From: Cupriavidus sp. MP-37
Lineage (GTDB): Bacteria > Pseudomonadota > Gammaproteobacteria > Burkholderiales > Burkholderiaceae
DNA length: 64,000 nt
Assembly (NCBI RefSeq): GCF_020618415.1
Contig: NZ_CP085345.1
Location: 992,001-1,056,000 of the forward strand
Direction: 5' to 3'
Below, in pieces: positions 18,249 to 63,907 of the stretch. Position 1 is the stretch's first letter. Every line of letters starts with the position of its first letter. The notes under the pieces are model-generated. The model saw nothing but the letters and a program-made list of their open reading frames with translations. It did not search any database and was not told the DNA's origin. Both the position numbers and the translations under genes were made by a program.

Positions 18249-18265
18249 TAGTCCGTTCCAACGAT
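18249..18265 (+). promoter_or_regulatory. Candidate steroid-regulon operator 1
   Basis: TAGTCCGTTCCAACGAT, 79 bp before the DUF1329 start. A TACCCT hexamer follows 21 nt later (18287-18292), a reasonable -10 box, so the motif would overlap the -35 region as a class II activator site does. It matches the motif upstream of kshA, hsaC and hsaA. Confidence 0.6.
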
Positions 18266-18343
18266 TCCCGCTCGCGCCGCCCTCTCTACCCTGTGACCAC
18301 AGGCACGGACGTCGCCGGCCATTCCCCTAGGAGCGAGACTGCA

Positions 18344-19723
18344 ATGACATCCACTACACACCGACTGCTGCGCGGCAGCCTGCTGGTGACCAGCATGGCA
18401 CTGGCCGCGGCAGCGTGGGCCAAGGTCACCCCCGAAGAACTCAAGCAACTCGACGGCAACCTCACGCCGATGGGCGCCGAGCGCGCCGCCAGCAAGGACG
18501 GCGACGTACCGGCGTGGAGCGGCAAGTGGCTGGGTGCGCCGCCCCATGTCAAATACCAGCGCGGCGACCGCTATCCGGATCCGTATGCCGACGAGAAGCC
18601 GCTGTTCGTCATCACCGCGCAGAACATGGCGCAGTATGCCGAGCGGCTGACCGAAGGCCAGAAGGCGCTGTTCAAGAAGTACCCCGACACCTTCAAGATG
18701 CCGGTGTACCCCAGCCATCGCGACTTCCGCTTCGAGGACGCCGCCTACAAGGACATCCGCACCTACGCCACCACCGTCAGCATGACCAGCGATGGCAACG
18801 GCCTGAAGAACGCCGGGCCGCAGGTCCCCTACCCGATCCCGAAGACCGCCATGGAGTTGCTGTGGAACCAGCGCTTCTCGGCCGCCATCGGCACCGAGAA
18901 GGCGCAGTACGACCAGGCCGTGGTCTATCCGAACGGCTCGATCGCCTGGGGGCGCGTCTCCTACAGCATCTTCTCACCGCGCAACCACGGCAAGTTCGAG
19001 CCCAACAACCCCCTCAACGAGCGCACCTTCTTCCGCACCGCCACCGACCTGCCGCTGCGTGACCGCGGCCAGGTGATCGTCGGGTATGCCGTGTGGGACC
19101 AGGAAGGCTCGGATACCAACCGCACGTGGATCTACAACCCGGGCACCCGGCGCGTGCGCCAGGCGCCGGAATTCGGCTTCGACCAGCCCCAGGGCCCCGG
19201 CGGCTTCCGCACGGTGGATGACGACCGCCTCTTCAACGGCTCCGGCGAGCGCTACAACTGGAAGATCGTCGGCAAGAAGGAGTTCTACGTCCCGTACCAC
19301 AGCTACAAGCTGATGAGCTCCGCGGTCAAGTACAAGGACCTGCTGACCAACGGGCACGCCAATCCGGACGCCATGCGCTACGAACTCCATCGGGTATGGA
19401 TCCTGGAGGCCACGCTGAAACCGGGCTTCCGCCACCAGTATGCGAAGCGCGTGCTGTATCTCGACGAAGACACCTGGCAATCGGTTGCCGCCGACAACTA
19501 CGACGGCCGCGGCCAGCTGTGGCGCACCAACCTGCAGGCGCTGGTCTACGCCTACGATGCGCGCCGCTTCTCCGCGGCGACGGTGTTCTACCATGACCTG
19601 ATTTCGGGTGCCTATCTGGCAGACCGGCTGACCAACGAGGGGCCGATGGCGAAGTTGAACAACAGTCCGGAGTTCAACGAGGCGTTCTTTTCGCCAGACG
19701 CGGCGCGGGGGTCTGGGACCTGA
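18344..19723 (+). CDS. DUF1329 outer-membrane-associated protein
   Basis: A 459-residue exported protein with signal peptide MTSTTHRLLRGSLLVTSMAL (cleavage after 'AWA', about residue 26), then a beta-rich DUF1329 domain starting 'VTPEELKQLDGNLTPMGAERA'. AGGAG lies nine bases before this Met; an in-frame Met 17 codons earlier lacks one. DUF1329 proteins are commonly encoded with MMPL/RND proteins and YCF48 propellers in hydrocarbon and steroid degradation loci and are suspected to help hydrophobic substrates cross the envelope. The usual DUF1302 partner gene is absent here. A candidate operator lies upstream. Confidence 0.88.
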   Translation: MTSTTHRLLRGSLLVTSMALAAAAWAKVTPEELKQLDGNLTPMGAERAASKDGDVPAWSGKWLGAPPHVKYQRGDRYPDPYADEKPLFVITAQNMAQYAERLTEGQKALFKKYPDTFKMPVYPSHRDFRFEDAAYKDIRTYATTVSMTSDGNGLKNAGPQVPYPIPKTAMELLWNQRFSAAIGTEKAQYDQAVVYPNGSIAWGRVSYSIFSPRNHGKFEPNNPLNERTFFRTATDLPLRDRGQVIVGYAVWDQEGSDTNRTWIYNPGTRRVRQAPEFGFDQPQGPGGFRTVDDDRLFNGSGERYNWKIVGKKEFYVPYHSYKLMSSAVKYKDLLTNGHANPDAMRYELHRVWILEATLKPGFRHQYAKRVLYLDEDTWQSVAADNYDGRGQLWRTNLQALVYAYDARRFSAATVFYHDLISGAYLADRLTNEGPMAKLNNSPEFNEAFFSPDAARGSGT

Positions 19724-19742
19724 TTGGATCGTGGCGGAATGG

Positions 19743-19769
19743 GGCGCTCCTTTGGGGCGCCTTTTTTTT
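19743..19769 (+). terminator. Intrinsic terminator after the DUF1329 gene
   Basis: A stem GGCGCTCC / GGGGCGCC (one G-U pair) with a TTT loop is followed by nine T residues, 20 bp after the stop codon. Confidence 0.88.
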
Positions 19770-19816
19770 GTTCTTTTCGATTTCGGATTCGGGGGCCGAA
19801 CTTCGTCGATGCGTTG

Positions 19817-20037
19817 GCCCTCACCCCCGCCCCTCTCCCGCACGCGGGAGAGGGGAGCAAACCCGCAGCAGCGTCATTTCCTCGAGCTTTTCAACTCACG
19901 CTTGTGTACTCCCTCTCGCGGGCGAGGGACCAAACCGGCAGCGGCATCATTGCTGCGAGCCATGCAACTCCCGCTTGCGTACTCCCTCTCCCGCTTGCGG
20001 GAGAGGGTCGGGGTGAGGGCGGGTGCGTCAACGAAGT
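19817..20037. repeat. GC-rich palindromic repeat cluster, copy 4
   Basis: Units at about 19817-19860 and 19985-20037, with a degenerate half-unit near 19910-19930. They lie between the terminator of the DUF1329 gene and the convergent end of kshA. No gene is seen in 19770-20167. Confidence 0.75.
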
Positions 20038-20167
20038 GAAGGGCGTCGCAATTGCGACCACTGGCATCCACGAAGTCAGGCGCACAAATCCTGACGGCTT
20101 GCCGCTCGGCCAGGACGCAAGTCGCCGGCCGAGCCCGCCAGGCAATCCCGCTAGAAGCCCGCCAGCC

Positions 20168-21244
20168 TCACCCCTCGAACACATGCCGCAGCACCGGCGG
20201 CTCGATATTGCCCGGGTTCATCTCGATCACCCTCCGCGCCACGCTGGACGGCCGCACCTGCTCCACATCGGTATAGAACTGCTGGTACCAGTCGCGCATC
20301 TGGTACATCGGCCCATCCCCTTCGCATAGCAGCGGGTTGTCGATGCGGATCTTGCTGTCCCAGATCGCCACGTCCTCGTAGAACGCGGCGCGGGCCTGGT
20401 CCACATAGGCTTGCGCCATGGCCCGGTTCTGTTCATCGGACAGCCCGGGCACCTTCTTCACCAGCACGCCGTAGCGCAGCACGAAGCTGTTCAGGTCGAT
20501 CGGCACGTGGCAGTTCAGCAGCACCGAATGGATCTCCTGGTCGCCCATGCGGCCGCTCATGTCGGTGATGTGGTAGGCCGGGCCAAAATACGTCGACAGT
20601 GCCGTCAGCTGCGAGTCGCCGGAGAGCCGGGCGCTGCGCCCGATCATCAGCTGCGTGGCCTTGTGGTCTTCGAACAGGTTGGCGAAGTAGTCCACCGGCG
20701 CGCCATGGACCACGCCGAAGTGCGCCATGTCGGAGATGTTGTCGACCAGCTCGCGGCAGTTGGTGCGGATCACCATCTCGTCCATGGCCCAGTCGGACCA
20801 CTCCTCGGAGAAGCACGCGTCGATGCGCGGGATCGCCACTTCCGGCGGTGCCGGCCGGCCTTCGGGATCATGCCAGATAAACAGCAGACGGTTCTGCTCG
20901 CAGGTCTCCCAGGCGCCGATGCGCGCCTTGGGCGGAATCCGCTTGCAGTAGGGAATGGACTTGCAGGCGCCGTCGCCGCCCCATTGCCAGCCGTGGAACG
21001 GGCACACCAGGTTGTCGCCCTGCACGGTGCCGGTGCTGAGGTCGGCGCCCATGTGCGGACAGTGGCCGTCGATCACGCGAATCGCGCCGGTCGAGTCGGC
21101 AAACGCCGCCAGGCGCCGCCCGAAGATATCCAGCGTGTGCGGCATGCCGTCGCGGTAGCTGTCGGCCAGGCCCAGGCAATGCCAGCCGCGCGCGTAGCGG
21201 GCCTCGGGCGGGCGCGATTCGATCTTGTAGCCTTGTACGCTCAT
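20168..21244 (-). CDS. kshA: 3-ketosteroid 9alpha-hydroxylase, oxygenase component KshA
   Basis: A 358-residue Rieske oxygenase closely matching actinobacterial KshA along its length. The Rieske cluster ligands are C62-x-H64 ('HCPHMGADLS') and C81-x2-H84 ('CPFHGWQWGGDG'). The mononuclear iron site is D172, H175 and H180 in 'VDNISDMAHFGVVHG', with the third ligand expected in 'WDSKIRIDNPLL'. It hydroxylates C9 of 3-ketosteroids, which with KstD opens ring B. Its reductase is encoded 24 kb away (KshB). AAGGAG precedes the ATG by nine bases and a candidate operator lies 62 bp upstream. The gene is monocistronic or followed only by repeats. Confidence 0.95.
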   Translation of the reverse strand: MSVQGYKIESRPPEARYARGWHCLGLADSYRDGMPHTLDIFGRRLAAFADSTGAIRVIDGHCPHMGADLSTGTVQGDNLVCPFHGWQWGGDGACKSIPYCKRIPPKARIGAWETCEQNRLLFIWHDPEGRPAPPEVAIPRIDACFSEEWSDWAMDEMVIRTNCRELVDNISDMAHFGVVHGAPVDYFANLFEDHKATQLMIGRSARLSGDSQLTALSTYFGPAYHITDMSGRMGDQEIHSVLLNCHVPIDLNSFVLRYGVLVKKVPGLSDEQNRAMAQAYVDQARAAFYEDVAIWDSKIRIDNPLLCEGDGPMYQMRDWYQQFYTDVEQVRPSSVARRVIEMNPGNIEPPVLRHVFEG

Positions 21245-21305
21245 GGCGTCTGTCTCCTTGAAATCCCGTGGGACCTTCAAGATATGGGCGTACGGCGCCG
21301 GCCTC

Positions 21306-21322
21306 ATCGTCCCATCGGACTA
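21306..21322 (-). promoter_or_regulatory. Candidate steroid-regulon operator 2 (kshA)
   Basis: On the minus strand TAGTCCGATGGGACGAT, containing the dyad GTCC-N4-GGAC. TATCTT follows 21 nt downstream (21279-21284) as a possible -10 box, and kshA starts 62 bp away. Confidence 0.65.
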
Positions 21323-21715
21323 CTGCAGCGCAACCATGCGGGTCAGTGCCGGGTCGTTACCGGGGCCATGCACGCAGCTGACCCCGGCGGGATCGTAGAT
21401 TCGCGCCACGCAGCCATTGCAGCTGTCGCAGGCCGAACGCTGCAGCGTGCCGGCGCGCCAGCCCGCGACCAGCGCCGGGTCATGGATCAGCGCGCGCGCC
21501 AGGGCCACAGCGTCGAAGCCCTCGCCCATCAGCTGCGCCACGTTGTCGAGCGACTTGACCCCGCCGATATAGGCCAGCGGCATCCGCACCGTCTGCCGCA
21601 CCACGCGCGAGGCCGCGTCCGGTTCTCCACGCTGCCGCCGTAGGCATCGCGCCGCAGGTTGCTCAGCGGCGACAGGTGAGGCCTGGATCTCGGGCATGCA
21701 GTCTCTCCGGTTGCG
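21320..21715 (-). pseudogene. Remnant of an old-yellow-enzyme (NADH:flavin oxidoreductase) gene
   Basis: Only C-terminal pieces remain, in two frames. One frame gives 'HLSPLSNLRRDAYGGSVENR', the FMN-enzyme signature of the OYE family. After a frame change the other gives 'RMPLAYIGGVKSLDNVAQLM' through 'GFDAVALARALIHDPALVAG' and a Cys-rich end. In intact family members roughly a hundred residues separate these blocks, so there is an internal deletion as well as a frameshift and loss of the N-terminal two thirds. It lies between kshA and the MMPL gene, and its 3' end touches the kshA operator region. An alternative is a short functional frame from 21697, which is unlikely. Confidence 0.75.
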
Positions 21716-21719
21716 AAGT

Positions 21720-24173: not shown

Positions 24174-24201
24174 GATGGTTCTCGCGTCCGGTCGGTCGGG
24201 T

Positions 24202-25164: not shown

Positions 25165-25211
25165 GATGTCTCCTCCGTTTTGGAGTGATGGCACGTGGCC
25201 TTGTGATTGTT

Positions 25212-25342: not shown

Positions 25343-25363
25343 AACAGGCAGCGCTACCTCTGC

Positions 25364-26569: not shown

Positions 26570-26584
26570 GCTGTGTGTTCCTGT

Positions 26585-27040: not shown

Positions 27041-27136
27041 ATGTGGTTCCAGCATTGATTCGAGTACCAACTGTGCTTCCCGGTCAGAACGGATTGCCGA
27101 TTCCAGCGACGAACGCAGCCAGCGCCCTTCGCGAAG

Positions 27137-39599: not shown

Positions 39600-40496
39600 T
39601 TAGCGGTATCCGATGCTGAAGTCGTGTCCCCACAGGCTGACGCGCGTGGCCTCGTAGGCGGCGTGGCGGCTCCAGTCCACCACCAGCCCGCCGTGGCCGA
39701 ACTCGAGGTCGAAGCCGGCGGGGGTCTTCATGTAGAACGAGGTCATGCGGTCATTGCAGTGCTGGCCCAGCGTGGCGGAGAGCTTCACGCCGTGCTGCTG
39801 CACGCGGTCGAGCGCGCGGCCCACCTCCGCCATGTCGGGCACCTCGGCCATCACGTGGATGCAGCCGGCTTCCGACGGCATCTCGAAGATCGCCAGGCTG
39901 TGGTGGCGGCCGTTGGCGCAATGCAGGAAGTGGATGCGCTTCTCCGGTTCGGCCGGGTCGTTGGTAAAGCGCACGCGGAAGATGTCGGACAGGCCGAAGC
40001 CCATCACGTCGCACAGGAAGGCGTAGGTCTCGTCGAAGGCCGGCGCGGGCAGCACCGCATGGCCGGCGCCCATCGGGTCCGTCACAAAGCGCGGCACGCC
40101 CTGCGGCGAGACGAAGCGCAGAAAATCCGAGCGCATGCCCCACGAGACCTCATGCCGGTTGCCCGACGGATCGGCAAACCAGGCCATGGCCTGCACGCGA
40201 CGCTGCGCCAGTTCCGCGGGGCTGGCGTGCACGACTTCCACGTTGGCCCGGCGCAGCGTCTCGAGCGCGTGGCGGTAGGCGGGCTCGTCGGCCAGCTCCC
40301 AGCCCGATGCCAGGTAGCGGTCGCGCGCACCGGGCACCACCAGGTAGCGGTAGTCGCGCTCATCCATCTTCACGTACAGCGCACCGCCGGGCGCGCCGGA
40401 ACAGGCCATGCCGAGCACCTGCTCGGCGTAGTGCCGCCACTGCCCGATGTCGGTGGACTCGACCACGATGTAGCCAAGCGCACGAATGTCCAACAT
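39600..40496 (-). CDS. hsaC: HsaC/TesB-type extradiol dioxygenase (3,4-DHSA 4,5-dioxygenase)
   Basis: A 298-residue type I extradiol dioxygenase of two vicinal-oxygen-chelate domains. Predicted Fe(II) ligands are H146 ('GAGHAVLP'), H199 ('NGRHHSLAIF') and E265 ('GFDLEFGHGG'); second-shell catalytic residues H192, H246 and Y255 are also present. The end 'ATRVSLWGHDFSIGYR' is typical of steroid enzymes (HsaC, TesB). It cleaves the catechol made from ring A by HsaAB. It is the first gene of the ipd operon and carries a candidate operator 99 bp upstream. The hydrolase that follows in the pathway (HsaD) is not in the window. Confidence 0.95.
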   Translation of the reverse strand: MLDIRALGYIVVESTDIGQWRHYAEQVLGMACSGAPGGALYVKMDERDYRYLVVPGARDRYLASGWELADEPAYRHALETLRRANVEVVHASPAELAQRRVQAMAWFADPSGNRHEVSWGMRSDFLRFVSPQGVPRFVTDPMGAGHAVLPAPAFDETYAFLCDVMGFGLSDIFRVRFTNDPAEPEKRIHFLHCANGRHHSLAIFEMPSEAGCIHVMAEVPDMAEVGRALDRVQQHGVKLSATLGQHCNDRMTSFYMKTPAGFDLEFGHGGLVVDWSRHAAYEATRVSLWGHDFSIGYR

Positions 40497-40594
40497 GCCG
40501 GTCTCCTCTGGTTCGATGTGGGTGTCGAAGTCGGCCGCGGCATCGCCGCAGCCCGTCGATGGAACCGATTCTTTCGTGTGCGGGCACTTGCTGC

Positions 40595-40611
40595 ATCGTC
40601 CTGGCGGACTA
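40595..40611 (-). promoter_or_regulatory. Candidate steroid-regulon operator 3 (hsaC-ipd operon)
   Basis: On the minus strand TAGTCCGCCAGGACGAT, with dyad GTCC-N4-GGAC, 99 bp before hsaC. The hexamer 22 nt downstream is AGAATC, a poorer -10 match than at kshA. The divergent SDR gene starts 131 bp away on the other side. Confidence 0.65.
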
Positions 40612-40741
40612 GCCGGTATGGCCGCGCCGGCGCCATCCGGCCACGCCGCGGGCACGGCTGGGGTAGTCCGAACGAGTGATGTGCCGGCGGCGCGCTGGCC
40701 GCACCCTCTGCGCGGGACGACCCCTACACAGAGGAGCAGAA

Positions 40742-41831: not shown

Positions 41832-42854
41832 ATGAATGCTATGACATATGGGCTGGACATTGCAAAGACAGTGTTCCAGATGTACTGGATAGACCCCATT
41901 ACGGGGAAGCCCCAGAACCGGCGATTCAGCCGCACCGCGCTCATCGAATTCCTGTCCAATTGCCAGCCTGGGCAGATCGCACTGGAGGCCTGTGGCGGTG
42001 CCCACTGGTGGGCGCGCAAGATCCAGAGCCTTGGCCACGAAGTGGTGTTGCTCAACCCGGGTTACGTACGCGCCTTCGTGCGTACGAACAAGAACGACGC
42101 GGCGGACGCCCGAGCCATCTGGACTGCAGCCCGGCAACCCGACATGCCGGTCGTGTCGGTCAAGACCGAAGCGCAGCAGGCTGTGCTCTCGTTGCATCGT
42201 ATACGGGACGGGCTGGTCAAGACGCGCACCCGGCAGAGCAACCAGATGCGCGGGCTGCTGGGCGAATATGGCCTGCACTTCCGCACGGGGCGGCTGGCCT
42301 TCCGGGCCGAGCTGCGCCAGCGCTGGGCTGAGGTCGCTCAGGTCGTACCGCCCTTGTTGATGCGCGCGCTGGAGCGGCAGGTCTGTGCGCTGCGCGAACT
42401 CGACGAACAGATCCAACTGGTTGAGCGTGACCTCCAGGAATGGCTGAGGTCTGATCCGGCCGCGCAGATCGTGGAGAAGATTCCCGGCGTCGGCCCCATT
42501 ACCGCCACCGCCTTGGTCGCGACCATGGGCTGTGCCCAGGCCTTCCGCTCAGGCAGAGCCTTCGCTGCAAGCCTGGGACTGGTTCCCGCGCAGACCGGCA
42601 CGGGCGGCAACGTACGGCTCGGTCACATCAGCAAGCGCGGCGACGCTTACGTGCGACGACAGTTGGTCAACGCCGGACGCACGATGCTCACGCGCACCAA
42701 ACATCCGCCGGCCTGGGCACTGTCCATGCTGCAGCGGCGCCCCAAGAACGTGGTGGTCGTGGCGCTGGCCAACAAGATCGCCCGGACAGCCTGGGCATTA
42801 ATGGCCCATGGGCGCCAATACGATCCCGGACATGTGAGCTTGCGCCCGGCCTGA
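41832..42854 (+). CDS. IS110-family transposase (DEDD, serine-type C-terminal domain)
   Basis: A 340-residue IS110-family recombinase starting MNAMTYGLDIAKTVFQ, behind GAGGAGAG. The N-terminal RuvC-like DEDD domain shows D9 in 'YGLDIAKTVFQMYW', Glu in 'ALEACGGAHWW' and the paired Asp in 'TNKNDAADARAIW'. The C-terminal Tnp20 domain has 'IPGVGPITATALVATMG' and 'AASLGLVPAQTGTGGNVRLG', whose Ser is the predicted nucleophile. The frame is uninterrupted, so the copy should be active. Confidence 0.95.
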   Translation: MNAMTYGLDIAKTVFQMYWIDPITGKPQNRRFSRTALIEFLSNCQPGQIALEACGGAHWWARKIQSLGHEVVLLNPGYVRAFVRTNKNDAADARAIWTAARQPDMPVVSVKTEAQQAVLSLHRIRDGLVKTRTRQSNQMRGLLGEYGLHFRTGRLAFRAELRQRWAEVAQVVPPLLMRALERQVCALRELDEQIQLVERDLQEWLRSDPAAQIVEKIPGVGPITATALVATMGCAQAFRSGRAFAASLGLVPAQTGTGGNVRLGHISKRGDAYVRRQLVNAGRTMLTRTKHPPAWALSMLQRRPKNVVVVALANKIARTAWALMAHGRQYDPGHVSLRPA

Positions 42855-51053: not shown

Positions 51054-52247
51054 TCAGATAAAGAAGTCCGTGTTGGCGCGGCCCATCATCACGCCACCCA
51101 GGTTCTGGCCGAAGCGGTCCAGGTTGTTGGCGTAGTGGGCGCGCGCCGCGTGCAGGTCAAGGAAGCGGCGCACCATCGGGTTGCTGCGGTAGATGCCGTT
51201 GCCGCCGGCATAGCGCAGCAGGCCGTTGGCCAGCTGCGCGCAGCGCTCCGCCACCTGCGCCGACTGGAAGCGGAAATGCAGCCGGCGCGGCGTGTCGACC
51301 TGGCCGCCGTCGCGCGCCACCGCCAGCAGCTCGTCGAAGTTGCGCTCCAGGATGGTCCGCATCTCGTCGATGGCCACCTGCGCGCTGGCGCACGCCATCT
51401 GCGCGCCGCCGTCTTCCGCGGTCTTGCCGCCGCCGTTGCTGCTGACGCGGCCGTCGGCGTAGGCGACGAAGTCGTCCAGCGTGCCTTCCAGCGCGCCGAT
51501 GCAGGCGGTGCAGACCGCGCGCACGAAGATCTGCGCGAACGGCAGCCGGTACAGCGGCACGTCATTGACGGCCAGCCCCGGGCTGGTGCCCATGGCGCCA
51601 TCGACGGCGCGATGGGTGCGGTAGTCGGGCACGAACACATCGTCGACCACGATATCGTGGCTGCCGGTCGCGCGCAGGCCCAGCACATCCCAGTTGCGCA
51701 CGATCTTGTAGTCCGAGCGTGGCAGCAGGAAGGTGCGGTAGTCATAGGCGCCGCCAGGCTCGGCGGGGGGCACCAGGCCGCCAAGGAAGATCCAGTCGCA
51801 CAGCTCGCTGCCGCTGGAGAACTTCCAGTGGCCGGAAAAGCGGTAGCCGCCTTCGACCGGCGTCACCTTGCCGACCGGCATGTAGGTCGACGCGATCAGC
51901 GTGGCGGGATCGTTGCCCCACACTTCCTGTTGCGCGCGTTCATCGAACAGCGCCAGCTGCCAGTTGTGCACGCCGACCACGCCGTAGACCCAGGCGGTGG
52001 ACATGCAGCCTTTGGCCAGCGCCATCTGGATGCGGAAGAAGGTTTGCGGGTCCAGCTCATAGCCGCCGTGGCGGCGCGGCTGCAGCACCTTGAAGAAGCC
52101 CGCGGCCTGCATCTCGGCGATGGTCTCGGCGGGAATGCGGCCTTCGGCCTCGGCCTGCGCGGCGCGTTCGGCCAACGCCGGGATCATCTGCTCGGCACGC
52201 GCGATCAGGCGTGCGGCGAGTTCCTTGGGATTGATGTCGTGATGCAC
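51054..52247 (-). CDS. hsaA: HsaA-like 3-HSA hydroxylase, oxygenase component
   Basis: A 397-residue flavin-dependent monooxygenase with an acyl-CoA dehydrogenase fold, as HsaA and TesA2: 'EMQAAGFFKVLQPRRHGGYE', 'ALAKGCMSTAWVYGVVGVHN', 'FSGHWKFSSGSELCDWIFLG', 'DVLGLRATGSHDIVVDDVFV' and the end 'NNLDRFGQNLGGVMMGRANTDFFI'. It hydroxylates the phenolic ring A to a catechol using FMNH2 or FADH2 from HsaB. The start codon is GTG with AAGGAG eight bases upstream. It opens a seven-gene operon down to fadD3, and a candidate operator lies 67 bp upstream. Confidence 0.94.
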   Translation of the reverse strand: MHHDINPKELAARLIARAEQMIPALAERAAQAEAEGRIPAETIAEMQAAGFFKVLQPRRHGGYELDPQTFFRIQMALAKGCMSTAWVYGVVGVHNWQLALFDERAQQEVWGNDPATLIASTYMPVGKVTPVEGGYRFSGHWKFSSGSELCDWIFLGGLVPPAEPGGAYDYRTFLLPRSDYKIVRNWDVLGLRATGSHDIVVDDVFVPDYRTHRAVDGAMGTSPGLAVNDVPLYRLPFAQIFVRAVCTACIGALEGTLDDFVAYADGRVSSNGGGKTAEDGGAQMACASAQVAIDEMRTILERNFDELLAVARDGGQVDTPRRLHFRFQSAQVAERCAQLANGLLRYAGGNGIYRSNPMVRRFLDLHAARAHYANNLDRFGQNLGGVMMGRANTDFFI

Positions 52248-52313
52248 CGCGGTCTCCTTGTTTGCCTGGTTTTGTGGCTGGCATCGATGTTTGCACCGGC
52301 GCGGCGGCGTGCC

Positions 52314-52330
52314 ATCGTCTGTTGGGACTA
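52314..52330 (-). promoter_or_regulatory. Candidate steroid-regulon operator 4 (hsaA operon)
   Basis: On the minus strand TAGTCCCAACAGACGAT, 67 bp before hsaA. The right half-site is weaker (AGAC instead of GGAC) but ACGAT is intact. Confidence 0.6.
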
Positions 52331-52872: not shown

Positions 52873-54024
52873 CTAAGCCAACGCCCGCAACTTCCTCCCC
52901 TGCTTGCGGAAATGCGGAATCACGTACTCGCCGATATTGCGGATGGTCTCCAGCTGCGCCCACTGCGGCACCGTGCCCATCTGGCAGATAAACAGGATTT
53001 CATCGGCGCCGGCATCGATCAGGCGCTGCACGTAGCCGATGCAGTCGTCCACCGTGCCGTAGGCGTGGTTGGGGTTCAGCATCATCATCGACGGATCGCT
53101 GAAGTCCACCGAGACCTTCTCCGACGCGAACTTCGTATTGATCACGGCCTTGCCCTGCGCATCGGTTGCCGTGACCTGCTCGTCGTCCCACGCCGACGGA
53201 TCGGGACGCTCGCCGCCGGCATACCAGTACGACAGCGACTCCATGAAATAGCGCTGTCCCTTGATGCCGATCTTGCGCGCCGCCAGCCCATCTTCCAGCA
53301 CGATGGTCGGGCACAGCGCCGCCAGGTGCTGGTGCGGGCGGAAGCCGACCTGGTCCTCCGGCTTGCGCGTTTCCCAGGCGGCGCGGTAGATCTCGTTCTT
53401 CTTGGCGACATCCTCCGGCCCGCCGAAGCCGAGCACCAGTGCGCCCATGCCGCGCGCGCCGGCGCGCTGCAGCGTGTCGGCGTTGGTGCAGGCCAGGTAC
53501 ATCAGCGGGTGCGGGTCCTGGCGCGGCTTGGGATGGATCGGGCGGCGCGGGATCTTGATGAACTCGCCGTCGTGCTCGATCTCGTCCTGCGTCAGGATCT
53601 TCGGGATCAGGTACATCGACTCGTCGATCATCGGGTGCAGGGTGTTGAGGTCGTAGCCGAAGGTGCCGGCCTCCTGCTGGGTGCCGCCCTTGCCCACGCC
53701 GAAGTGCACGCGGCCGCCGGACAGGATGTCGAGCGTGGCGATGCGCTCGGCCACCTTCACCGGATGGTTCATCGCCGGCGGCAGGCACACCACGCCGTGG
53801 CCGATGCCGATGCGCTGGGTGCGCCCGGCGACGAAGGCCAGGAAAGTCTCCGGCGCGCTCATGTGCGCGTAGTTGGTCAGCGCAGTGTGCTCGACCGCCC
53901 AGACCACGTCGAAGCCCATGTCCTCGGCCAGCACCACTTGTTCCATGATGTCGTCGAACACCTTGTGGTCGCCGGCGCGCGAGGCATCGACGGTCTGGGC
54001 TTCATAGATCAACGAAAAACGCAT
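52873..54024 (-). CDS. LLM-class flavin-dependent oxidoreductase (luciferase-like)
   Basis: A 383-residue luciferase-fold monooxygenase: 'VLAEDMGFDVVWAVEHTAL', 'GRTQRIGIGHGVVCLPPAMNHPVKVAERIATLDILSGGRVHFG', 'GKGGTQQEAGTFGYD', 'GALVLGFGGPEDVAKKNEIY' and 'GTVDDCIGYVQRLIDAGADEI'. Such enzymes use reduced FMN or F420; in a proteobacterium FMN is likely. AGGGGA precedes the ATG and a variant operator lies 118 bp upstream, tying it to the steroid regulon. A Baeyer-Villiger or hydroxylation step is possible but unproven. Confidence 0.88.
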   Translation of the reverse strand: MRFSLIYEAQTVDASRAGDHKVFDDIMEQVVLAEDMGFDVVWAVEHTALTNYAHMSAPETFLAFVAGRTQRIGIGHGVVCLPPAMNHPVKVAERIATLDILSGGRVHFGVGKGGTQQEAGTFGYDLNTLHPMIDESMYLIPKILTQDEIEHDGEFIKIPRRPIHPKPRQDPHPLMYLACTNADTLQRAGARGMGALVLGFGGPEDVAKKNEIYRAAWETRKPEDQVGFRPHQHLAALCPTIVLEDGLAARKIGIKGQRYFMESLSYWYAGGERPDPSAWDDEQVTATDAQGKAVINTKFASEKVSVDFSDPSMMMLNPNHAYGTVDDCIGYVQRLIDAGADEILFICQMGTVPQWAQLETIRNIGEYVIPHFRKQGRKLRALA

Positions 54025-54141
54025 TGCAGTCCCCTCTCGCTTGGTCGGTACCAGACCGCATCCGGGGCACTGCGAGGCGCTGCGCCTTGGGCCGGAAGCG
54101 GCCTGCGTGATCGCAGTGTGGTCGGCGCAAGACGTCGCAAC

Positions 54142-54158
54142 ATCGTCTGATTGGATTA
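54142..54158 (-). promoter_or_regulatory. Candidate steroid-regulon operator 5 (variant)
   Basis: On the minus strand TAATCCAATCAGACGAT, one mismatch in the left TAGTCC block, ACGAT intact, 118 bp before the LLM gene. The VOC gene starts 75 bp away on the other strand. No clear -10 box at the usual spacing. Confidence 0.45.
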
Positions 54159-54586: not shown

Positions 54587-55789
54587 CTAGCCGAGCGAAA
54601 TCACGCTGCTCAGCAGCATGCGCACCAGCGTGGCCTGGCGCGTCACGCCGGTCTTGGAGAAGATCGCGCGCAGGTGCGCGCGCGCGGTGTTCTTGCTGAT
54701 GCCGAGTTCGTCGGCGGCTTCATCGAGCGTCAGGCCGTTGGCCAGCTGCAGCGCCAGCTGGGTCTCGGCCGGAGTGAAGTCGAACAGCTGGCGCACCACG
54801 TCGTGCGAGGCCTGCGAACGGCGTTCGGGATCGCGGATAAACACCACGCAGGCGGGGCGCTTGCGGTTGTCCTCGGACCACTCGCTCAGCGGGATGGTGC
54901 GGACCAGCACGCCCAGCCTGGCGCTGCCGGACGGACGCGTGATCGACATCGCTTCCATCACCGCCGGCGCGGTGCCCAGGTGGCCCATCATCGCCTGGCG
55001 CAGCAGCCGCTGGAACTTGCGGTTCTCCTGGCCATATTCCACGTCCAGGCTGCCCTTGGCGATGCGCATGCCGTCCCGGGCGCCCAGGATCTCGTCGGCG
55101 GCGGCATTGGTCTTGATGATGGCGCCGGACTCGTCGAGGATCACCATGCCGACCAGCATGCGGTCGATCGCGCTGGCATAGACGGTGCGCTCCGATTCCA
55201 CCACGTCGAGGCGCGAGTGCAGGTCCACCGCGCGCTTCAGGTGCGGCAGCAGCGCGGTGCACAGGGCCTTGTCCGCGGCCGAGAAGTCGCGGCTCTCATG
55301 CTTGCGGCAGACCCGGAAGCGGCATTCCACGCCATCGTCGGTACGCAGGTCCGCGCCCAGGATATAGCGGATGCCGACGTCCTTGAGGAACTGCAGGTAG
55401 ATCTCGCTCTGGCACCAGACGCCCGGCCCGAGATGCTCGTCGATGGTCACCACGCGGTCCGACGGCAAGCCGATAAACGGATCGAGCGCGTAGTAGTAGT
55501 TGTTGTAGGAAGTCTCGCCCGGCAGCGTCGAGCCGCCATGCTCGGACGCATTGATCATGAGCCCGCGCCGGTCCGTGGCCGGCGAGCGCAGGATCAGCGT
55601 GACGTAGTTGGCATCGAGCTGCCTGCGGATCTGCTCCAGCGCCTTGCCCCAGGGCACCTGCTCCATCGGTCCCTGGTAGATATTGCCCAGCAACGCGCTG
55701 AAGTCAGACAGCGACACCGTCGTCTGCGCGAACAGGTGCGCGGCTGCCTGGTTGTGGCTCACCTCCATCAGCATTTCCTCTGTCTCCAT
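54587..55789 (-). CDS. LuxR-type transcriptional regulator, TesR-like
   Basis: A 400-residue regulator with a GAF/autoinducer-like N-terminal region, a PAS-like middle ('DRMLVGMVILDESGAIIKTNAAADEILG', about 208-235) and a C-terminal LuxR helix-turn-helix ('FTPAETQLALQLANGLTLDEAADELGISKNTARAHLRAIFSKTG', about 340-385). The size and layout match TesR, the steroid-degradation activator of Comamonas testosteroni, and it is the only LuxR protein in the locus. The Met codons at 55774 and 55768 have better ribosome spacing than 55789. A palindromic copy of the regulon motif lies 161 bp upstream, which would permit autoregulation. Confidence 0.88.
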   Translation of the reverse strand: METEEMLMEVSHNQAAAHLFAQTTVSLSDFSALLGNIYQGPMEQVPWGKALEQIRRQLDANYVTLILRSPATDRRGLMINASEHGGSTLPGETSYNNYYYALDPFIGLPSDRVVTIDEHLGPGVWCQSEIYLQFLKDVGIRYILGADLRTDDGVECRFRVCRKHESRDFSAADKALCTALLPHLKRAVDLHSRLDVVESERTVYASAIDRMLVGMVILDESGAIIKTNAAADEILGARDGMRIAKGSLDVEYGQENRKFQRLLRQAMMGHLGTAPAVMEAMSITRPSGSARLGVLVRTIPLSEWSEDNRKRPACVVFIRDPERRSQASHDVVRQLFDFTPAETQLALQLANGLTLDEAADELGISKNTARAHLRAIFSKTGVTRQATLVRMLLSSVISLG

Positions 55790-55949: not shown

Positions 55950-55966
55950 TAGTCCCGCGGGACAGG
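55950..55966 (+). promoter_or_regulatory. Candidate steroid-regulon operator 6 (luxR / SDR intergenic)
   Basis: TAGTCCCGCGGGACAGG, with the perfect 12-bp palindrome GTCCCGCGGGAC (55952-55963). The left half matches the motif; the right ends ACAGG rather than ACGAT. It lies in the 378-bp gap between the regulator and the plus-strand SDR, which otherwise contains no gene. Confidence 0.5.
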
Positions 55967-56167
55967 CCCATCGTCACGCGCCGGCGGCGCAAACACATAC
56001 TCCAAACAGACTAAGGACAGACCCATGCCGGCCCGGCAAGGGCAAACCCCTATGCAACCGGTAGCGCAGGCGCGTCCCACCCAAACAGACGATGCCCGCG
56101 CGCCGCGCCGCGGCTACAAGAAGCCATGCGCGGCGATCGACGCCGCCGTTTTGAGGAGACCTCCACC

Positions 56168-56977: not shown

Positions 56978-57035
56978 ACCAGCTCTCTGAACTCGCGCTC
57001 CGCACCTGAATCCTCAACCGCAACCGGGAGACACC

Positions 57036-57989
57036 ATGCCGCTCGATCCCCAGGCCCGCGCCATGCTTGACGCCATGGCCGCCATGCCCAGCCCCGACTT
57101 CTCCACGCTGCGCGCCGCCGATTACCGTGCCGCGCTGGCGGCCATGCCCGGATTCGCTCCCGGCGATGCCATCGCTGCGCAGCACGACCTGACCCTGAAC
57201 GGCGCGGCCGGCCCGCTGCGGGCGCGCCTGTACCGGCCGGACGACGGCGCCGCGCTGCCGCTCGTGATCTATTTCCACGGCGGCGGCTTCGTCCTGTGCG
57301 GCCTCGATTCGCACGACAACATCTGCCGCAGCCTGGCGCGCCGCAGCGGCGCGCTGGTGCTGTCGGTCGACTACCGGCTCGCGCCGGAAGCGCGCTTCCC
57401 GGCCGCCGCGGACGATGCCGTCGCGGCGGTGCGATGGGCCGCCGCGCATGCGGCGCAACTGGGCGCGGATCCGGCGCGGATCGCGGTGGCGGGCGACAGC
57501 GCCGGCGGCAATCTCGCCGCGGTGGCTTGCCAGCAATTGCGCGGCAGCGGCATCGCCCTGAGGCACCAGCTGCTGCTCTACCCCTGGCTGGACTGCACCG
57601 ATGCCGCGACCGGCAGCGCCAGCTACCGCGAATGCGCAACCGGCTATTTCCTGAGCGCGGCGGAACTGGACTGGTATCGCGCCCAGTACCTTGCCAATCG
57701 CGCCGATGCCGCGGACGTGCGTGCCAGTCCGCTGTGCCAGCGCGACCTGCATGGCTTGCCACCAGCGACCATCATCACCGCCGAGTTCGACCCGCTGCGC
57801 GACCAGGGCGAAGCCTACGGCGAAGCGCTGCAGCGCGCGGGCAACAGCGCCACCGTGCGCCGCTGGCCCGGGCAGTTCCATGGCTTTGCCAGCATGCAGG
57901 GCGTGATCGATGCGGCCAGCCATGCGCTGGATGCGGCCGCGGCGGCGCTGGTCCAGGCATTCGGCGGCAGCCGCCAGGAGGCCGCATGA
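57036..57989 (+). CDS. HSL-family alpha/beta hydrolase (esterase)
   Basis: A 317-residue hormone-sensitive-lipase-type esterase: oxyanion motif HGGGF at 81-85, nucleophile S155 in 'VAGDSAGGNLAAVA', Asp in 'AEFDPLRDQGEAY', His in 'WPGQFHGFASM'. It would hydrolyse short acyl esters or lactones. It is not the HsaD type of C-C hydrolase, which lacks the HGGGF motif. GGGAG precedes the ATG, and the stop overlaps the next start (ATGA). A steroid ester or lactone substrate is conceivable. Confidence 0.88.
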   Translation: MPLDPQARAMLDAMAAMPSPDFSTLRAADYRAALAAMPGFAPGDAIAAQHDLTLNGAAGPLRARLYRPDDGAALPLVIYFHGGGFVLCGLDSHDNICRSLARRSGALVLSVDYRLAPEARFPAAADDAVAAVRWAAAHAAQLGADPARIAVAGDSAGGNLAAVACQQLRGSGIALRHQLLLYPWLDCTDAATGSASYRECATGYFLSAAELDWYRAQYLANRADAADVRASPLCQRDLHGLPPATIITAEFDPLRDQGEAYGEALQRAGNSATVRRWPGQFHGFASMQGVIDAASHALDAAAAALVQAFGGSRQEAA

Positions 57990-59086
57990 ACCCGACGCAA
58001 GTCCTGCCGCCGATGGCCGACGTGCTTGCCGCACTGGCCGCTGGCGAGCGTGTGGTGGTGATCGAAGACGAAACCGCGGAAGCCACCGGCTGCGTGCTGG
58101 TGGCCGCCGAGCGCGCCACCGAGGCCGACGTCAACTTCATGGCCGCCGAGGCGCGCGGCCTGGTGTGCATGGCCATCACCGAGGCGCGCCGCGCGCTGCT
58201 GCAGCTGCCGCCCATGGCCGCCGGCCAGCGCCAGCGCGAGCGCTACACCGTGTCGATCGAGGCGGCCAGCGGCGTCAGCACCGGCATCTCGGCCGCCGAC
58301 CGCGCGCTGACGCTGCGCGTGGCGGCCGCGCCGCGCGCGCGGCCGCATGACCTGGTCCAGCCCGGCCATATCTTCCCGGTGGTGGCGCAGCCGGACGGCG
58401 TGCTGCGCCGCGCCGGCTTTGCCGAGGCGTGCTCAGACCTGCCGCGGCTGGCCGGGCGCGTCGCGGCCGGGGCCTATGCAATGGTGCTCGACGACGACGG
58501 CGAGCTGCTGCGTGGCGCGGCCCTGCTTGGCTTCGCCCGGCGCCACGGCCTGCCGGCGGTCTCCGTCAGCGGGCTGATCCACCACCGGCTGCTGACCGAG
58601 GGCGCGCTGCGCCGTACCCGCTCGAGCGAACTGGCGACGCCGTTCGGGCGCTTCACCGTGCACGCCTACCACGACGCGCCAGTGGACGCGCTGCACCTGG
58701 CGCTGGTGCTGGGCCAGCCTGACCCGCGCACGCCCGTGCTGACCCGCGTGCAGACCGTGGAAATGCAGCGCGACGTGCTGGCCTTCGGCGCGCCCGCGCA
58801 GCCGGCATGGAACCTGGCGCGCTCGCTGGAGCGGATCGGCGCCGAAGGCTGCGGCGTGCTGGTGCTGCTGGATGAGCGCGAGTCGCCGCTGCAGCGGCTG
58901 GACCGGCTGGCCGCTACCGCAGCGGCCGCGCCGGCACCGGCGTTCGCCCAGCGCGCGCTCGGCGTCGGCGCGCAGATCCTGCGCGACGTGGGCGCGCACA
59001 AGCTGCGCCTGCTGAGCCATCCGGTGCCCTATCGCGCCGTCACCGGCTTCGAGCTGGAGGTGACGGAGTTTGTCCCGCCGGGCTGA
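57986..59086 (+). CDS. RibBA-like protein with degenerate active sites
   Basis: A 366-residue homologue of the fused 3,4-dihydroxy-2-butanone-4-phosphate synthase / GTP cyclohydrolase II. RibB framework: 'VNFMAAEARGLVCMAIT', 'STGISAADRALT', 'PHDLVQPGHIFPVVAQPDGVLRR'. The acidic loop usually R-E-N-E-G-D reads 'AEATGC' (31-36), and the catalytic His of G-H-T-E-A is Phe ('GFAEA', F145). The RibA half lacks the zinc-binding cysteines (C-L-T-G-D and R-C-D-C). Both activities are probably lost. AGGAGG precedes the ATG. It may bind flavin precursors or have a new function in this flavin-rich pathway. Confidence 0.82.
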   Translation: MNPTQVLPPMADVLAALAAGERVVVIEDETAEATGCVLVAAERATEADVNFMAAEARGLVCMAITEARRALLQLPPMAAGQRQRERYTVSIEAASGVSTGISAADRALTLRVAAAPRARPHDLVQPGHIFPVVAQPDGVLRRAGFAEACSDLPRLAGRVAAGAYAMVLDDDGELLRGAALLGFARRHGLPAVSVSGLIHHRLLTEGALRRTRSSELATPFGRFTVHAYHDAPVDALHLALVLGQPDPRTPVLTRVQTVEMQRDVLAFGAPAQPAWNLARSLERIGAEGCGVLVLLDERESPLQRLDRLAATAAAAPAPAFAQRALGVGAQILRDVGAHKLRLLSHPVPYRAVTGFELEVTEFVPPG

Positions 59087-60056: not shown

Positions 60057-60075
60057 GGCAGGCGGTGCTGAGGTC

Positions 60076-60867: not shown

Positions 60868-60918
60868 GTTGGTGTCTCCAATTTCGGTGATCTTGAGAGC
60901 CTGTCAGAATGGCCGAGT

Positions 60919-61440: not shown

Positions 61441-61488
61441 GGGAGTTGGAAGGCCTGTGGCGAACGATCCCGCTGCGGCTTTTCCCGA

Positions 61489-62667
61489 TCATCTGGTTGC
61501 TTTGCGGTTCAGCACGTGCCGCGCGCGGTAACCGGCAAAATCGCGCTCAAGCTGTGCCTGGCTCAGCCCGAACCGTTCGGGCGTATAGGCGTGCGCCGCG
61601 CGCTGGTTGCGCGGGTTGCCTTCCATCCACGCCCACATGCCGGCGCGCGCGGCCTCGGTCAGCGGCATGCCGGCGAAGCGGTAGACCGCCTGCGCCACGC
61701 CGAAGGGATCGCGCACCGTGTCCTCGAAACGCACGTCGAGGAAGCGCTCGGCGGGCATGGCGTCGCGCACGGCCGTGGCGTGGTCGGTGCCGCGCCGCAT
61801 CTGTTCGCTCCACTGGCGGCCCACCGCGACCGGATCCGGATCGTCGGCATACAGCTGCCACAGCGTATGCGCCATGCTCGCCATCGACGGGATGGTCTGG
61901 ACCGGATCGCGGTGGGTCAGCACCACCTGCGCGCCCGGGAACACCCGGAACAGCACTTCCAGCGTATGCAGGTGCTGCGGGGTCTTCAGCACCCACCGCC
62001 GCGCCGGTGTCTCGCCGCGCTGGCGCTTCTGCCACTGCAGGAACTGCAGCATGGTCTTCAGGCAGGCATAGACCTCGGTGTGGTCCTGCTGCGCCAGCCA
62101 GCCGGTATAGGACGGCACGTTGGCATAGGAATCCATTGCGCACAGGAACGAATGCTCCATCAGCATGAATTCCTCGTCCGCGGCCATCGCATCGAGCGGA
62201 TGGATGGCGAGGATGTCGGGGATACATTCGATCATCTGCGCCACTTCCGCACGCGCCGTGGCGATGCGCCGGCTGGGGTCGCGCACGTCCTCGCCGGGCA
62301 GCGGCGCCGGGTAGCGGGTCTCCCACCACGCCGCCGAGCAGAAGCGCGCGTCGGTGGCCAGCATGCGCTGCAGCAGCGTGGTGCCGGTACGCGGCAGGCC
62401 GACGATGACCAGCGGGTCGTCCACGCACTCGTGCAGGATTTCCGGATGGCGCCGGCAGTAGTCCTGCATCACCAGCCGGTTCACCAGCTGGCCCTGCAGC
62501 TTGCCTGCCAGCATGTGTGCGCCTTGCGGCGACAGGTTGGCCTCGCGTGCCAGCGAGTCGGACAGCACCTGCAGCGCCTCGCGATAGTTGCCCGGGCCGA
62601 AGTCGTCCAGGCCGCCGGCCTGCTCGCTCGCCTGCGCCAGCAGGCGTTCCACGTCGATGGCGTTCAT
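61489..62667 (-). CDS. Sulfotransferase-family protein
   Basis: A 392-residue PAPS-type sulfotransferase. The 5'-phosphosulfate loop is 'VIVGLPRTGTTLLQRMLATD' (about 87-106); the 3'-phosphate-binding region is 'VVLTHRDPVQTIPSMASM' and 'FEDTVRDPFGV'. Bacterial members of this group are common in degradation loci and may not all transfer sulfate. The ATG overlaps the stop of the DUF1214 gene (ATGA), and an operator lies before that gene, so the pair belongs to the steroid regulon. Confidence 0.87.
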   Translation of the reverse strand: MNAIDVERLLAQASEQAGGLDDFGPGNYREALQVLSDSLAREANLSPQGAHMLAGKLQGQLVNRLVMQDYCRRHPEILHECVDDPLVIVGLPRTGTTLLQRMLATDARFCSAAWWETRYPAPLPGEDVRDPSRRIATARAEVAQMIECIPDILAIHPLDAMAADEEFMLMEHSFLCAMDSYANVPSYTGWLAQQDHTEVYACLKTMLQFLQWQKRQRGETPARRWVLKTPQHLHTLEVLFRVFPGAQVVLTHRDPVQTIPSMASMAHTLWQLYADDPDPVAVGRQWSEQMRRGTDHATAVRDAMPAERFLDVRFEDTVRDPFGVAQAVYRFAGMPLTEAARAGMWAWMEGNPRNQRAAHAYTPERFGLSQAQLERDFAGYRARHVLNRKATR

Positions 62668-63785
62668 GCGTTGTTCTCCATGGGGAATTCACCGAGCGAT
62701 GCCAGCTTGACCACGCGCGTGCGCGGATGCGCGGGCTGCGCCGCGCCGACCCAGCGCCAGCACATGGTGCCGTGGCGATGGCCCGCAGTTTCCAGCCAGT
62801 TGGGCAGGCCCGGGTCGCGCGCACTGAGGATGACGGTGACGCCGCCGTCGGCGTTCAGCCGCGCGCCGTGCTTGTTGAGGCAGATGTCGTGGTAGCGGTA
62901 GTCGAGCGATTCCATCCAGTAGTTGTTGATCTGGAAGTTCCAGAATTCGCAGTCCGGCACCCGGTCGACCTCGACCACCAGCGCCTCGTCATCCGCGAGC
63001 CGCCAGCACGAGTGGTAATAGAAGATGTTGGGATCGCCGCCGGCTGCCTGGCAAACCGCCTGGTCCGCCGGCGGCAGCGCGTTGACGTGGCCGCCATAAC
63101 CCTCGGCCCAGTCGGCGAAGATGCGCGCGGTGCTTTCGACAAAGCCTGCGGCGCGCAGCAGGCCGGCATGCAGGCGCTCCGCACTCAGCACGGGCGGCTT
63201 GCCGTTGGCGTCGATGCGCTCGATCTGCAATTCCGCTGGCGTCTCCGCCTTGCGGTCGAGGAAGGTCTGACGCACCACCAGTGCATTGGTGGCCGGCTCG
63301 ATGCGCACCCAGTTGCCCGGCTGCGGCTGCGCGCTCAGGACGATCTCGAAACTGCCGTCCGGCGCAACAGCAAGCTGGTTGCTGTCGAGAAAACCAGTCT
63401 GGACCATGCGCCCGTCGGTTTCATAGCCGCCCTTCTGCGTGCCGAAGCTCAGGTACGCCACCGTGCCGCGCCGGCCGCGGATGCGGTATGCCGCGCTGCC
63501 GTCCAGCCGCGCGTAGCGGTACAGGTTGTCCGGGTTGTCGGCGCCGATCTTGGCGGTCTCGTGCGATGGCGAGAAGAATCCCGGGAACGCCGGATCGGCG
63601 AACTCCACATGCATCTCCAGCGCAATGCGCAGCAGGCGGCTCAGGTAGCGGAAGCCCTCGGCGCGCGTGAGCGCATCCGCCGGCGCTTCCGGGCGCAGGA
63701 TCTGCTGCCCGCTGCGCTTGAGCACGTCGCAAAACTCGGCCCAGGTCTGGCCGCCCAGCAATTGGTCTTCGGCGGAGGTCGCCAT
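62664..63785 (-). CDS. DUF1214-domain protein
   Basis: A 373-residue protein with a DUF1214 domain in the C-terminal half: 'YYHSCWRLADDEALVVEVDRVPDCEFWNFQINNYWMESLDY' and 'GVTVILSARDPGLPNWLETAGHRHGTMCWRW'. The N-terminal part has 'LLRIALEMHVEFADPAFPGF' and a region of beta strands. Function unknown. GGAG precedes the ATG. It is the first gene of the pair with the sulfotransferase and has a candidate operator 60 bp upstream, which includes a TATCGT hexamer at 22 nt spacing. Confidence 0.85.
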   Translation of the reverse strand: MATSAEDQLLGGQTWAEFCDVLKRSGQQILRPEAPADALTRAEGFRYLSRLLRIALEMHVEFADPAFPGFFSPSHETAKIGADNPDNLYRYARLDGSAAYRIRGRRGTVAYLSFGTQKGGYETDGRMVQTGFLDSNQLAVAPDGSFEIVLSAQPQPGNWVRIEPATNALVVRQTFLDRKAETPAELQIERIDANGKPPVLSAERLHAGLLRAAGFVESTARIFADWAEGYGGHVNALPPADQAVCQAAGGDPNIFYYHSCWRLADDEALVVEVDRVPDCEFWNFQINNYWMESLDYRYHDICLNKHGARLNADGGVTVILSARDPGLPNWLETAGHRHGTMCWRWVGAAQPAHPRTRVVKLASLGEFPMENNA

Positions 63786-63844
63786 CTGCCTGCTCCCGTG
63801 GTTCGTCGGCGCAGCAACGATACCCAGCACGGGGCGGCGCCTTC

Positions 63845-63861
63845 CTCGTCCGGGTGGACTA
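63845..63861 (-). promoter_or_regulatory. Candidate steroid-regulon operator 7 (DUF1214-sulfotransferase)
   Basis: On the minus strand TAGTCCACCCGGACGAG, with dyad GTCC-N4-GGAC. TATCGT follows 22 nt later (63817-63822). Confidence 0.65.
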
Positions 63862-63890
63862 GGAAATGCGCGCCGCCGCCCGCGATTTCT

Positions 63891-63907
63891 TAGTCCGCCC
63901 GGACGAA
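63891..63907 (+). promoter_or_regulatory. Candidate steroid-regulon operator 8 (gene at the right edge)
   Basis: TAGTCCGCCCGGACGAA, with dyad GTCC-N4-GGAC. TACCTT follows 22 nt later (63930-63935), and a start codon at 63998 lies 91 bp downstream. Operators 7 and 8 form a back-to-back divergent pair 29 bp apart. Confidence 0.65.

Follow-up and report, generated by a model that had tools for sequence, protein, structure and literature searches.

A conserved dyad before steroid-catabolic genes of Cupriavidus sp. MP-37 as a very probable operator for TesR-family activators

How are the genes for steroid breakdown switched on in Cupriavidus sp. MP-37, and is a short dyad that recurs ahead of them the operator? 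The question arises from a 64,000-nucleotide (nt) stretch of this genome, referred to here as the window (C2:992001-1056000 of the two-contig, 6.11-Mb genome G000, C1 and C2 being the contigs), in which gene calling and Pfam searches placed a steroid-degradation cluster at approximately 18-64 kb. Gene models were our own and uncurated, with Pfam run on 29 called genes; several 3-kb loci used later in the analysis went unclassed. The cluster encodes KshA, a BphC/TesB-type dioxygenase, thiolase, MaoC and SDR proteins, FAD_binding_2 proteins (putatively of KstD type), flavin and ferredoxin-type reductases, a luciferase-like monooxygenase, an MMPL protein with a sterol-sensing match, and a LuxR-family regulator. 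An original prediction, made from the sequence of the window, had listed eight copies of a 17-base-pair (bp) motif at steroid-gene promoters. From the analysis presented here we consider it very probable that the element, T(A/C)GTCC-N4-(G/A)GACGATG, is the operator of a steroid-catabolism regulon and is bound in class II geometry by TesR-family activators.

Seven of the eight listed copies were within one mismatch of TAGTCCNNNNRRACGAT (Table 1), where 0.02 would be expected from 100 dinucleotide shuffles. Because the motif had been derived from this same window, the count is circular when taken alone. The seven sites were located 60-118 nt from the predicted starts, in agreement with the 60-120 bp first proposed, and in general lie between genes as claimed, with the exception of the kshA site, whose first three bases (TAG) are the stop codon of the small open reading frame (ORF) 21320-21583. 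Sites 63845 and 63891 stand back to back between the DUF1214/sulfotransferase and cysD-cysNC genes. The DUF1329 site also precedes the closest DUF1329 orthologue in four of the seven other genomes scanned (G003, G030, G007 and G008). The eighth copy, at 55950, which had been taken as a meaningful site of the regulator gene itself, did not hold up. It carries three mismatches, ranked 55th of 154 window matches when left out of the matrix, has no -10 hexamer at the right distance and was matched in three of the seven other clusters scanned; on the grounds of promoter geometry and matrix rank it was rejected as an autoregulatory operator. A nearby site at 55997/55998 is conserved in several genomes without promoter geometry (matched in five of the seven: G003, G030, G007, G017 and G008), and sites related to a weaker candidate at 40664 were found at the orthologous promoter in all seven. 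Each of these last three sites gave a poor -10 score.

Within the whole genome the exact motif occurs four times, three times in the window and once at C2:1103768 (minus strand), 48 kb outside it and 54 nt before a TesD/HsaD-like hydrolase gene, which lies near genes resembling tesEFG (all named by eye from their sequences). Copies with no more than one mismatch numbered 17, compared with 15 for the mirrored pattern. Nine of the 17 fell within C2:1010249-1103784, a 94-kb stretch of the 6.1-Mb genome, and every one of the nine immediately precedes a gene; two share bases with the stop codon of the ORF before them (21306 and C2:1058814, where the TAG ends cysNC), and one runs into a doubtful TTG extension of a divergently oriented gene. 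By our gene models seven of the remaining eight are intragenic and one precedes a thiolase gene. Copies were thus concentrated at steroid genes, as the original prediction had anticipated, and not scattered at random. Beyond the window, sites were located at C2:1058814 (plus strand, before a second luxR gene), before tesD, at C2:1100930 (minus) and at C2:1104690 (plus), the last preceding an outer-membrane-protein-like gene upstream of tesEFG.

The thiolase match, at C1:2446294, was rejected as a regulon member: it was limited to six of 20 aligned upstream regions (two of the 22 loci were dropped as no start codon was found), it also occurs in two regulator-negative genomes, and the conserved TATACT of that promoter is a long way from it. 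At these loci (L010, L260-L281) a second conserved element, TTAGGTAAAAGTACG...CGTTC, was present in most aligned relatives. A degenerate pattern, TMRTCYNNNNNRACGAD, was discarded as too loose, with 41 matches versus 28 for its mirror and nine in the 94-kb cluster; 13 of its matches start with TA, including nine in the cluster. One out-of-cluster match, at C1:2981019 (L299; TCATCCAATCGGACGAG), has a fair -10 hexamer (CACAAT) at the right offset.

In lux box and other class II LuxR-type promoters, a dyad near -42.5 overlaps the -35 region and is occupied by an activator with a C-terminal GerE-type helix-turn-helix (HTH). The present element is like these promoters in layout and differs from them in sequence. 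Its geometry was analyzed using 311 intergenic sites which scored at least 15.5 with a matrix built from the eight listed sites and lay 40-260 nt from a start; these sites, drawn from 98 regions, were reduced to 89 dissimilar ones, the Vibrio locus described below being left out. The 89 sites display the dyad T-[AC]-G-T-C-C-N4-[GA]-G-A-C-G-A, and in 90% of aligned sites a G follows at position 18, lengthening the consensus to 18 bp. When TAnnnT hexamers were sought over 60 offsets, 30 of the 35 found at the 89 sites were at offsets 20-22. The best -10 offset was 20-22 in 25 of 28 target families (21 in 18 of them), the other three having it at 24, 32 and 45. All 11 sites of the MP-37 cluster scoring at least 15.5 had their best hexamer, of 45 offsets, at 20-22, and for the seven window sites it was at 21 or 22. 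The TAnCnT-like hexamers originally noted 21-22 nt beyond four sites were recovered as TACCCT, TATCTT, TATCGT and TACCTT at the DUF1329, kshA, DUF1214 and cysD promoters. With the hexamer start set at -12, the dyad axis would fall at -42.5 on the basis of the predicted -10 hexamers, so that the dyad would overlap the -35 region at the position of a class II activator, as had been proposed.

The distribution of the motif within Cupriavidus was compared with that of the regulator in 36 same-genus genomes, including our own, of which 13 carry the regulator (79-100% identity) and 23 do not. Exact copies numbered 3-6 per regulator-positive genome (56 in total) versus 0-2 per regulator-negative genome (18 in total), a contrast with a Mann-Whitney p of 2.4e-7, uncorrected for relatedness. 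The majority of the 56 lie close to either the regulator or the tesD region. The mirrored pattern had three copies in the 36 genomes, one of them in the 23 regulator-negative genomes. Sites recur at corresponding promoters across the clusters of eight genomes.

Loci from other genera were then available through two routes. Among the best 80 of 403 loci fetched with the regulator, its nearest named relatives were from Cupriavidus; 31 loci were grouped as Cupriavidus (30 so named plus 'Burkholderiaceae bacterium 16', with some overlap with the eight-genome set) and 49 were from Ralstonia, Paraburkholderia and Burkholderia. With near-palindromes counted twice (once per strand, one base apart) for motif and controls alike, the 49 loci gave 118 matches scoring at least 16, whereas the mirrored matrix gave six and 20 permuted matrices averaged 4.05 (largest 20); at a score of at least 20 there were 39 matches, compared with 0 and 0.0, respectively. 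No match scoring at least 15.5 was found in L162 or L184, two of the 49 loci. Recurring targets were the luciferase-like gene, an acyl-CoA-dehydrogenase-like gene and the regulator/hydrolase divergon, and one Burkholderia locus (L194) carries a fully symmetric site, TCGTCCGATCGGACGA.

Genomes were also chosen by the presence of TesB (E<=1e-70), independently of regulator and motif. TesB was found in 4 of 399 genomes of the order, 7 of 397 of the phylum (our own in both) and 7 of 299 of one family, which gave 13 different genomes outside the genus; by their listed kinship, four belong to other orders, and one of the four to another class. All 13 had a match to the motif matrix within 300 nt upstream of tesB (best scores 12.1-24.3), as expected from the original prediction, and the score was reached by none of 200 permuted matrices in 11 genomes and by 1 and 2 of 200 in G918 and G262. 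The best hexamer at offset 20-22 scored 2.6-6.8 and, in 12 of the 13 genomes (all but G792), outscored every other one of the 45 offsets. TesR relatives with 37-65% identity were present in all 13 (7/7 and 6/6). Beyond tesB, matches scoring at least 14 versus those of the mirrored matrix were 16 and 4 in G493, 5 and 1 in G126, 5 and 1 in G262, and 1 and 0 in G792; our gene caller is weak on short or AT-rich loci, and few genes were called in G262. On a Sphingobium plasmid, an annotated kshA is preceded by a site at a distance of 55 nt. The Vibrio plasmid cluster contains three modest candidate sites, which are no more than suggestive; this Vibrio alfacsensis plasmid (L215) encodes acyl-CoA dehydrogenase, thiolase, hydratase and cysDN genes together with a 40% identical TesR relative. 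Further TesR relatives of about 59-64% identity (P0072, P0088, P0097 and P0119) occur in Candidatus Binataceae/Binatus assemblies, far from Burkholderiales, which suggests that the regulator may have been transferred.

The proposed binding protein is the LuxR-family regulator encoded in the window beside the KshA_C, BphC-type dioxygenase and FAD_binding_2 genes. PF00196 (LuxR/GerE HTH) was matched at residues 333-386 with 29.8 bits (cut-off 23.5), and the protein is 39% identical over 376 residues, i.e., beyond the HTH, to TeiR of Comamonas testosteroni (Q6URL0). Like TeiR/TesR of that species, it thus combines full-length regulator homology with a gene position inside a steroid cluster. In G810, which appears Diaphorobacter-like from its protein names, the regulator is 83% identical to TeiR and the motif precedes tesB. 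Ten residues of the recognition region are invariant in 33 aligned relatives (N362, T363, R365, H367, L368, R369, K374, G376, R379 and Q380). HTH segments of homologues with approximately 22-27% identity (two of 16 loci yielded none) read ETxR(T/S)QLK in 18 of 22 cases and NTARAHLR in none. A structure model of the regulator (predicted local distance difference test 75.9, predicted template modelling score 0.51) gave weak global matches of its sensor region to phytochromes, PDE6 and VqmA, with the acyl-homoserine-lactone receptor RhlR also listed, hinting at GAF/PAS-type modules. The original prediction of a single LuxR regulator was correct inside the window; a second paralogue, 53% identical to the first and with a site of its own, is encoded past the right edge, and a further paralogue, at about 67-71% identity, is found in several relatives.

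From these sequence data we infer direct binding by TesR, activation, the inducing signal and the positions at which transcription begins. A dimer of the TesR/TeiR-type regulator would bind the imperfect dyad centred at about -42.5, its promoter-proximal half-site overlapping the -35 region, and would recruit sigma-70 RNA polymerase to a -10 hexamer 20-22 nt past the 17-mer. The signal would be a steroid or a pathway intermediate. One such site would serve most main transcription units of the window, namely DUF1329, kshA, the tesB run, the KstD-type/reductase run, the luciferase-like gene, DUF1214/sulfotransferase and cysD-cysNC, and outside it the second luxR, tesD and the outer-membrane-protein gene before tesEFG would be under the same control.

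Several observations weigh against this interpretation. The 18 copies in regulator-negative genomes exceed the single copy of the mirrored control, indicating that not every motif copy belongs to TesR. Three of the 18 were placed: two thiolase copies (G014 and G015) and the kshA of G026 (L069), which has a perfect site and a -10 hexamer although the closest homologue of the regulator in that genome reaches only 24% identity; this kshA is possibly an orphaned or acquired fragment. The well-matched thiolase-upstream site occurs in a sub-clade irrespective of TesR. Four of 27 out-of-cluster matches score at least 2 at offset 20-22, where the background is 4.4%. The regulator gene itself is without a convincing canonical site in this genome, and with TesR present as two paralogues in this genome, and as more than two in some relatives, the pairing of sites with paralogues is ambiguous. 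In two distant genomes, G682 and G463, the signal beyond tesB was near background (3 matches versus 2 mirrored in each). The regulator-negative copies and the weak signal in these two genomes slightly lowered our confidence in the operator reading as a whole and in the broader proposal made below.

Of the alternatives, the one that survives best is that the element is a genuine steroid-regulon operator with another binding protein, for instance the TetR-type protein whose gene lies close to tesD, or a factor that is not linked to the cluster. The presence of that gene, a dyad length which also suits TetR proteins, and the copies in some regulator-negative genomes are compatible with it. A search for that TetR protein at E<=1e-15 found nothing, however, in the 13 tesB genomes with the operator, a weak negative given that the search had no positive control, whereas TesR relatives were present in all 13; the fixed position overlapping -35 is also typical of an activator. 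We regard this alternative as unlikely. Less likely still, and to our minds quite improbable, is that the element acts as a repressor operator lying over the -35 region. Polymerase could also be blocked from a site with its centre near -42, but the distance between site and -10 is near-fixed, with 18 of the 28 families at one offset and 25 within 3 nt, and since such spacing is needed by an activator and not by a repressor, a repressor is disfavoured. TeiR/TesR is, moreover, described as a positive regulator in the available portions of PMC8700777 and PMC6895838.

We give almost no credence to a conserved sequence without function, or a chance set of repeats left by shared promoter ancestry. 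Within Cupriavidus, promoters of orthologous genes are close kin, and the comparison across the genus carries no correction for phylogeny, but at the distant tesB promoters, judged by eye, site and hexamer are kept although the 20-21 nt between them diverge, unrelated target genes of one genome share the same arrangement, and shuffled, mirrored and permuted controls were all low. An RNA-level element (a small hairpin or terminator) can practically be dismissed: the dyad has the potential to fold into a short hairpin, and two of the copies share bases with a stop codon, but at all 11 strong sites the predicted -10 lies downstream of the motif, which would place the motif outside the transcript that it controls.

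The preferred reading, an operator bound by TesR-family activators, was compared with known systems. TeiR/TesR has been named the activator of proteobacterial steroid degradation since 2004. In the available portions of the literature it is a LuxR-type or positive regulator (PMC6678751, PMC8700777, PMC8399759, PMC6895838, PMC12239570, PMC13101464), is required for steroid induction of its genes (PMC6678751, PMC8700777, PMC6895838), and has been presented as a polar kinase-type sensor (PMC6678751, PMC8399759). The present data differ from that kinase-sensor account in favouring a class II activator that binds DNA directly. No published TesR/TeiR operator was found among the papers listed in the literature searches, although one may stand in the original 2004 TeiR paper or in other subscription journals. 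The nearest precedent in that literature, as far as its accessible text goes, is the ACTU motif of CrbR in Pseudomonas fluorescens (PMC5715377), likewise an imperfect inverted repeat conserved across species and served by a LuxR-family activator, and located at -52 to -36 of the mapped start of the acs promoter. It differs in its half-site (e.g., TACTACCATCGTCGAAT, which by eye is not matched by the present motif), its acetate regulon and its two-component-system regulator. KstR/KstR2 of actinobacteria and the estrogen regulator EdcR of Caenibius similarly have dedicated steroid-catabolic operators; unlike TesR, they are TetR-family repressors, and the EdcR palindrome, TnnCnnTACnAnTnGTAnnGnnA, overlaps the -10 (PMC8700777, available portion). 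KstR homologues are absent from bile-acid-degrading Proteobacteria according to the accessible part of a review (PMC8399759). The operator sequence looks new, and its kind, a LuxR-type class II operator, is already known.

The remaining features of the locus are collected in Table 1. The tesB-like gene stands at the upstream end of its run, and the seven-gene run that starts with the Acyl-CoA_dh_2 family gene includes two FAD_binding_2 proteins (putatively KstD-type), a flavin reductase and a ferredoxin-type reductase. A ribBA-like gene at 57986-59083 (plus strand), with DHBP synthase and GTP cyclohydrolase II domains, lies within the SDR/hydrolase run beside the regulator and perhaps supplies flavin for flavin-dependent steroid enzymes. 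Transposase-type genes are located within the cluster at 17375-18166 (Pfam rve) and 41832-42854 (by eye), the latter with a shorter second copy at C2:974386-975000.

Table 1. Candidate operator sites and genes of the steroid-catabolic region (window positions unless prefixed C2).
Feature	Position	Strand	Remark
Candidate operator site before DUF1329 gene	18249..18265	+	predicted -10 TACCCT at 18287-18292
Candidate operator site before kshA	21306..21322	-	predicted -10 TATCTT at 21279-21284
Candidate operator site before tesB-like gene	40595..40611	-	predicted -10 AAGAAT at 40568-40573
Candidate operator site before Acyl-CoA_dh_2 family gene	52314..52330	-	predicted -10 AAACAT at 52287-52292
Candidate operator site before luciferase-like monooxygenase gene	54142..54158	-	predicted -10 CACACT at 54115-54120
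Candidate operator site before DUF1214 and sulfotransferase genes	63845..63861	-	predicted -10 TATCGT at 63817-63822
Candidate operator site before cysD-like/cysNC-like genes	63891..63907	+	predicted -10 TACCTT at 63930-63935
Weaker candidate site before SDR gene	40664..40680	+	poor -10 score
Weak site in divergent LuxR/SDR intergenic region	55997..56013	-	read on plus strand from 55998: TACTCCAAACAGACTAA; low -10 score
Eighth site on earlier list, unconvincing	55950..55966	+	TAGTCCCGCGGGACAGG
DUF1329 gene	18344-19723	+	gene call
kshA	20168-21244	-	KshA_C, Rieske domains
Small ORF 5' of kshA	21320-21583	-	resembles C-terminal piece of flavin oxidoreductase (by eye)
tesB-like extradiol dioxygenase gene	39600-40496	-	long minus-strand gene run
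SDR gene	40742-41608	+	gene call
Acyl-CoA_dh_2 family gene	51054-52247	-	first of seven minus-strand genes
Luciferase-like monooxygenase gene	52873-54024	-	gene call
TesR/TeiR-like LuxR-family regulator gene, proposed binder	54587-55774	-	GerE domain, TeiR homology
Sulfotransferase gene	61489-62667	-	gene call
DUF1214 gene	62664-63785	-	gene call
cysD-like, cysNC-like genes	63998 to C2:1058816	+	sulfate activation; run past right edge of window
Second TesR-like LuxR paralogue	C2:1059072-1060235	+	3.1 kb past right edge of window
TetR-like gene near tesD	C2:1100944-1101579		named by eye from sequence

The DUF1214/sulfotransferase genes facing cysD-cysNC over back-to-back sites suggest a steroid-inducible sulfonation step. 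DUF1214-like and cysD-like genes, each with a site, were also observed in G299 and G493. More broadly, and as a tentative proposal that we hold to be possible without favouring it, a single operator-regulator pair may govern aerobic steroid catabolism across Alpha-, Beta- and Gammaproteobacteria and may have been inherited or transferred as a unit; TesR/TeiR would then be a direct DNA-bound activator at -42.5 and not primarily a membrane kinase, and the regulon would include a sulfate-activation/sulfotransfer arm pointing to an unrecognised sulfo-conjugation step in steroid breakdown.

An 18-bp site at a fixed distance from the -10 hexamer would allow direct binding, regulon membership and steroid sensing to be tested together, and would make regulons readable from genomes, including members outside the cluster such as tesD, 48 kb away, and sulfate activation. 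The operator is also a possible part for steroid biosensors. In the accessible text of PMC6895838, which repeats a report, tesR-like genes are said to be confined to Comamonas testosteroni strains, and PMC12239570, likewise in its accessible text, describes a TesR-like regulator in Caenibius with homologues elsewhere. The data presented here indicate that TesR control would extend well beyond Comamonas.

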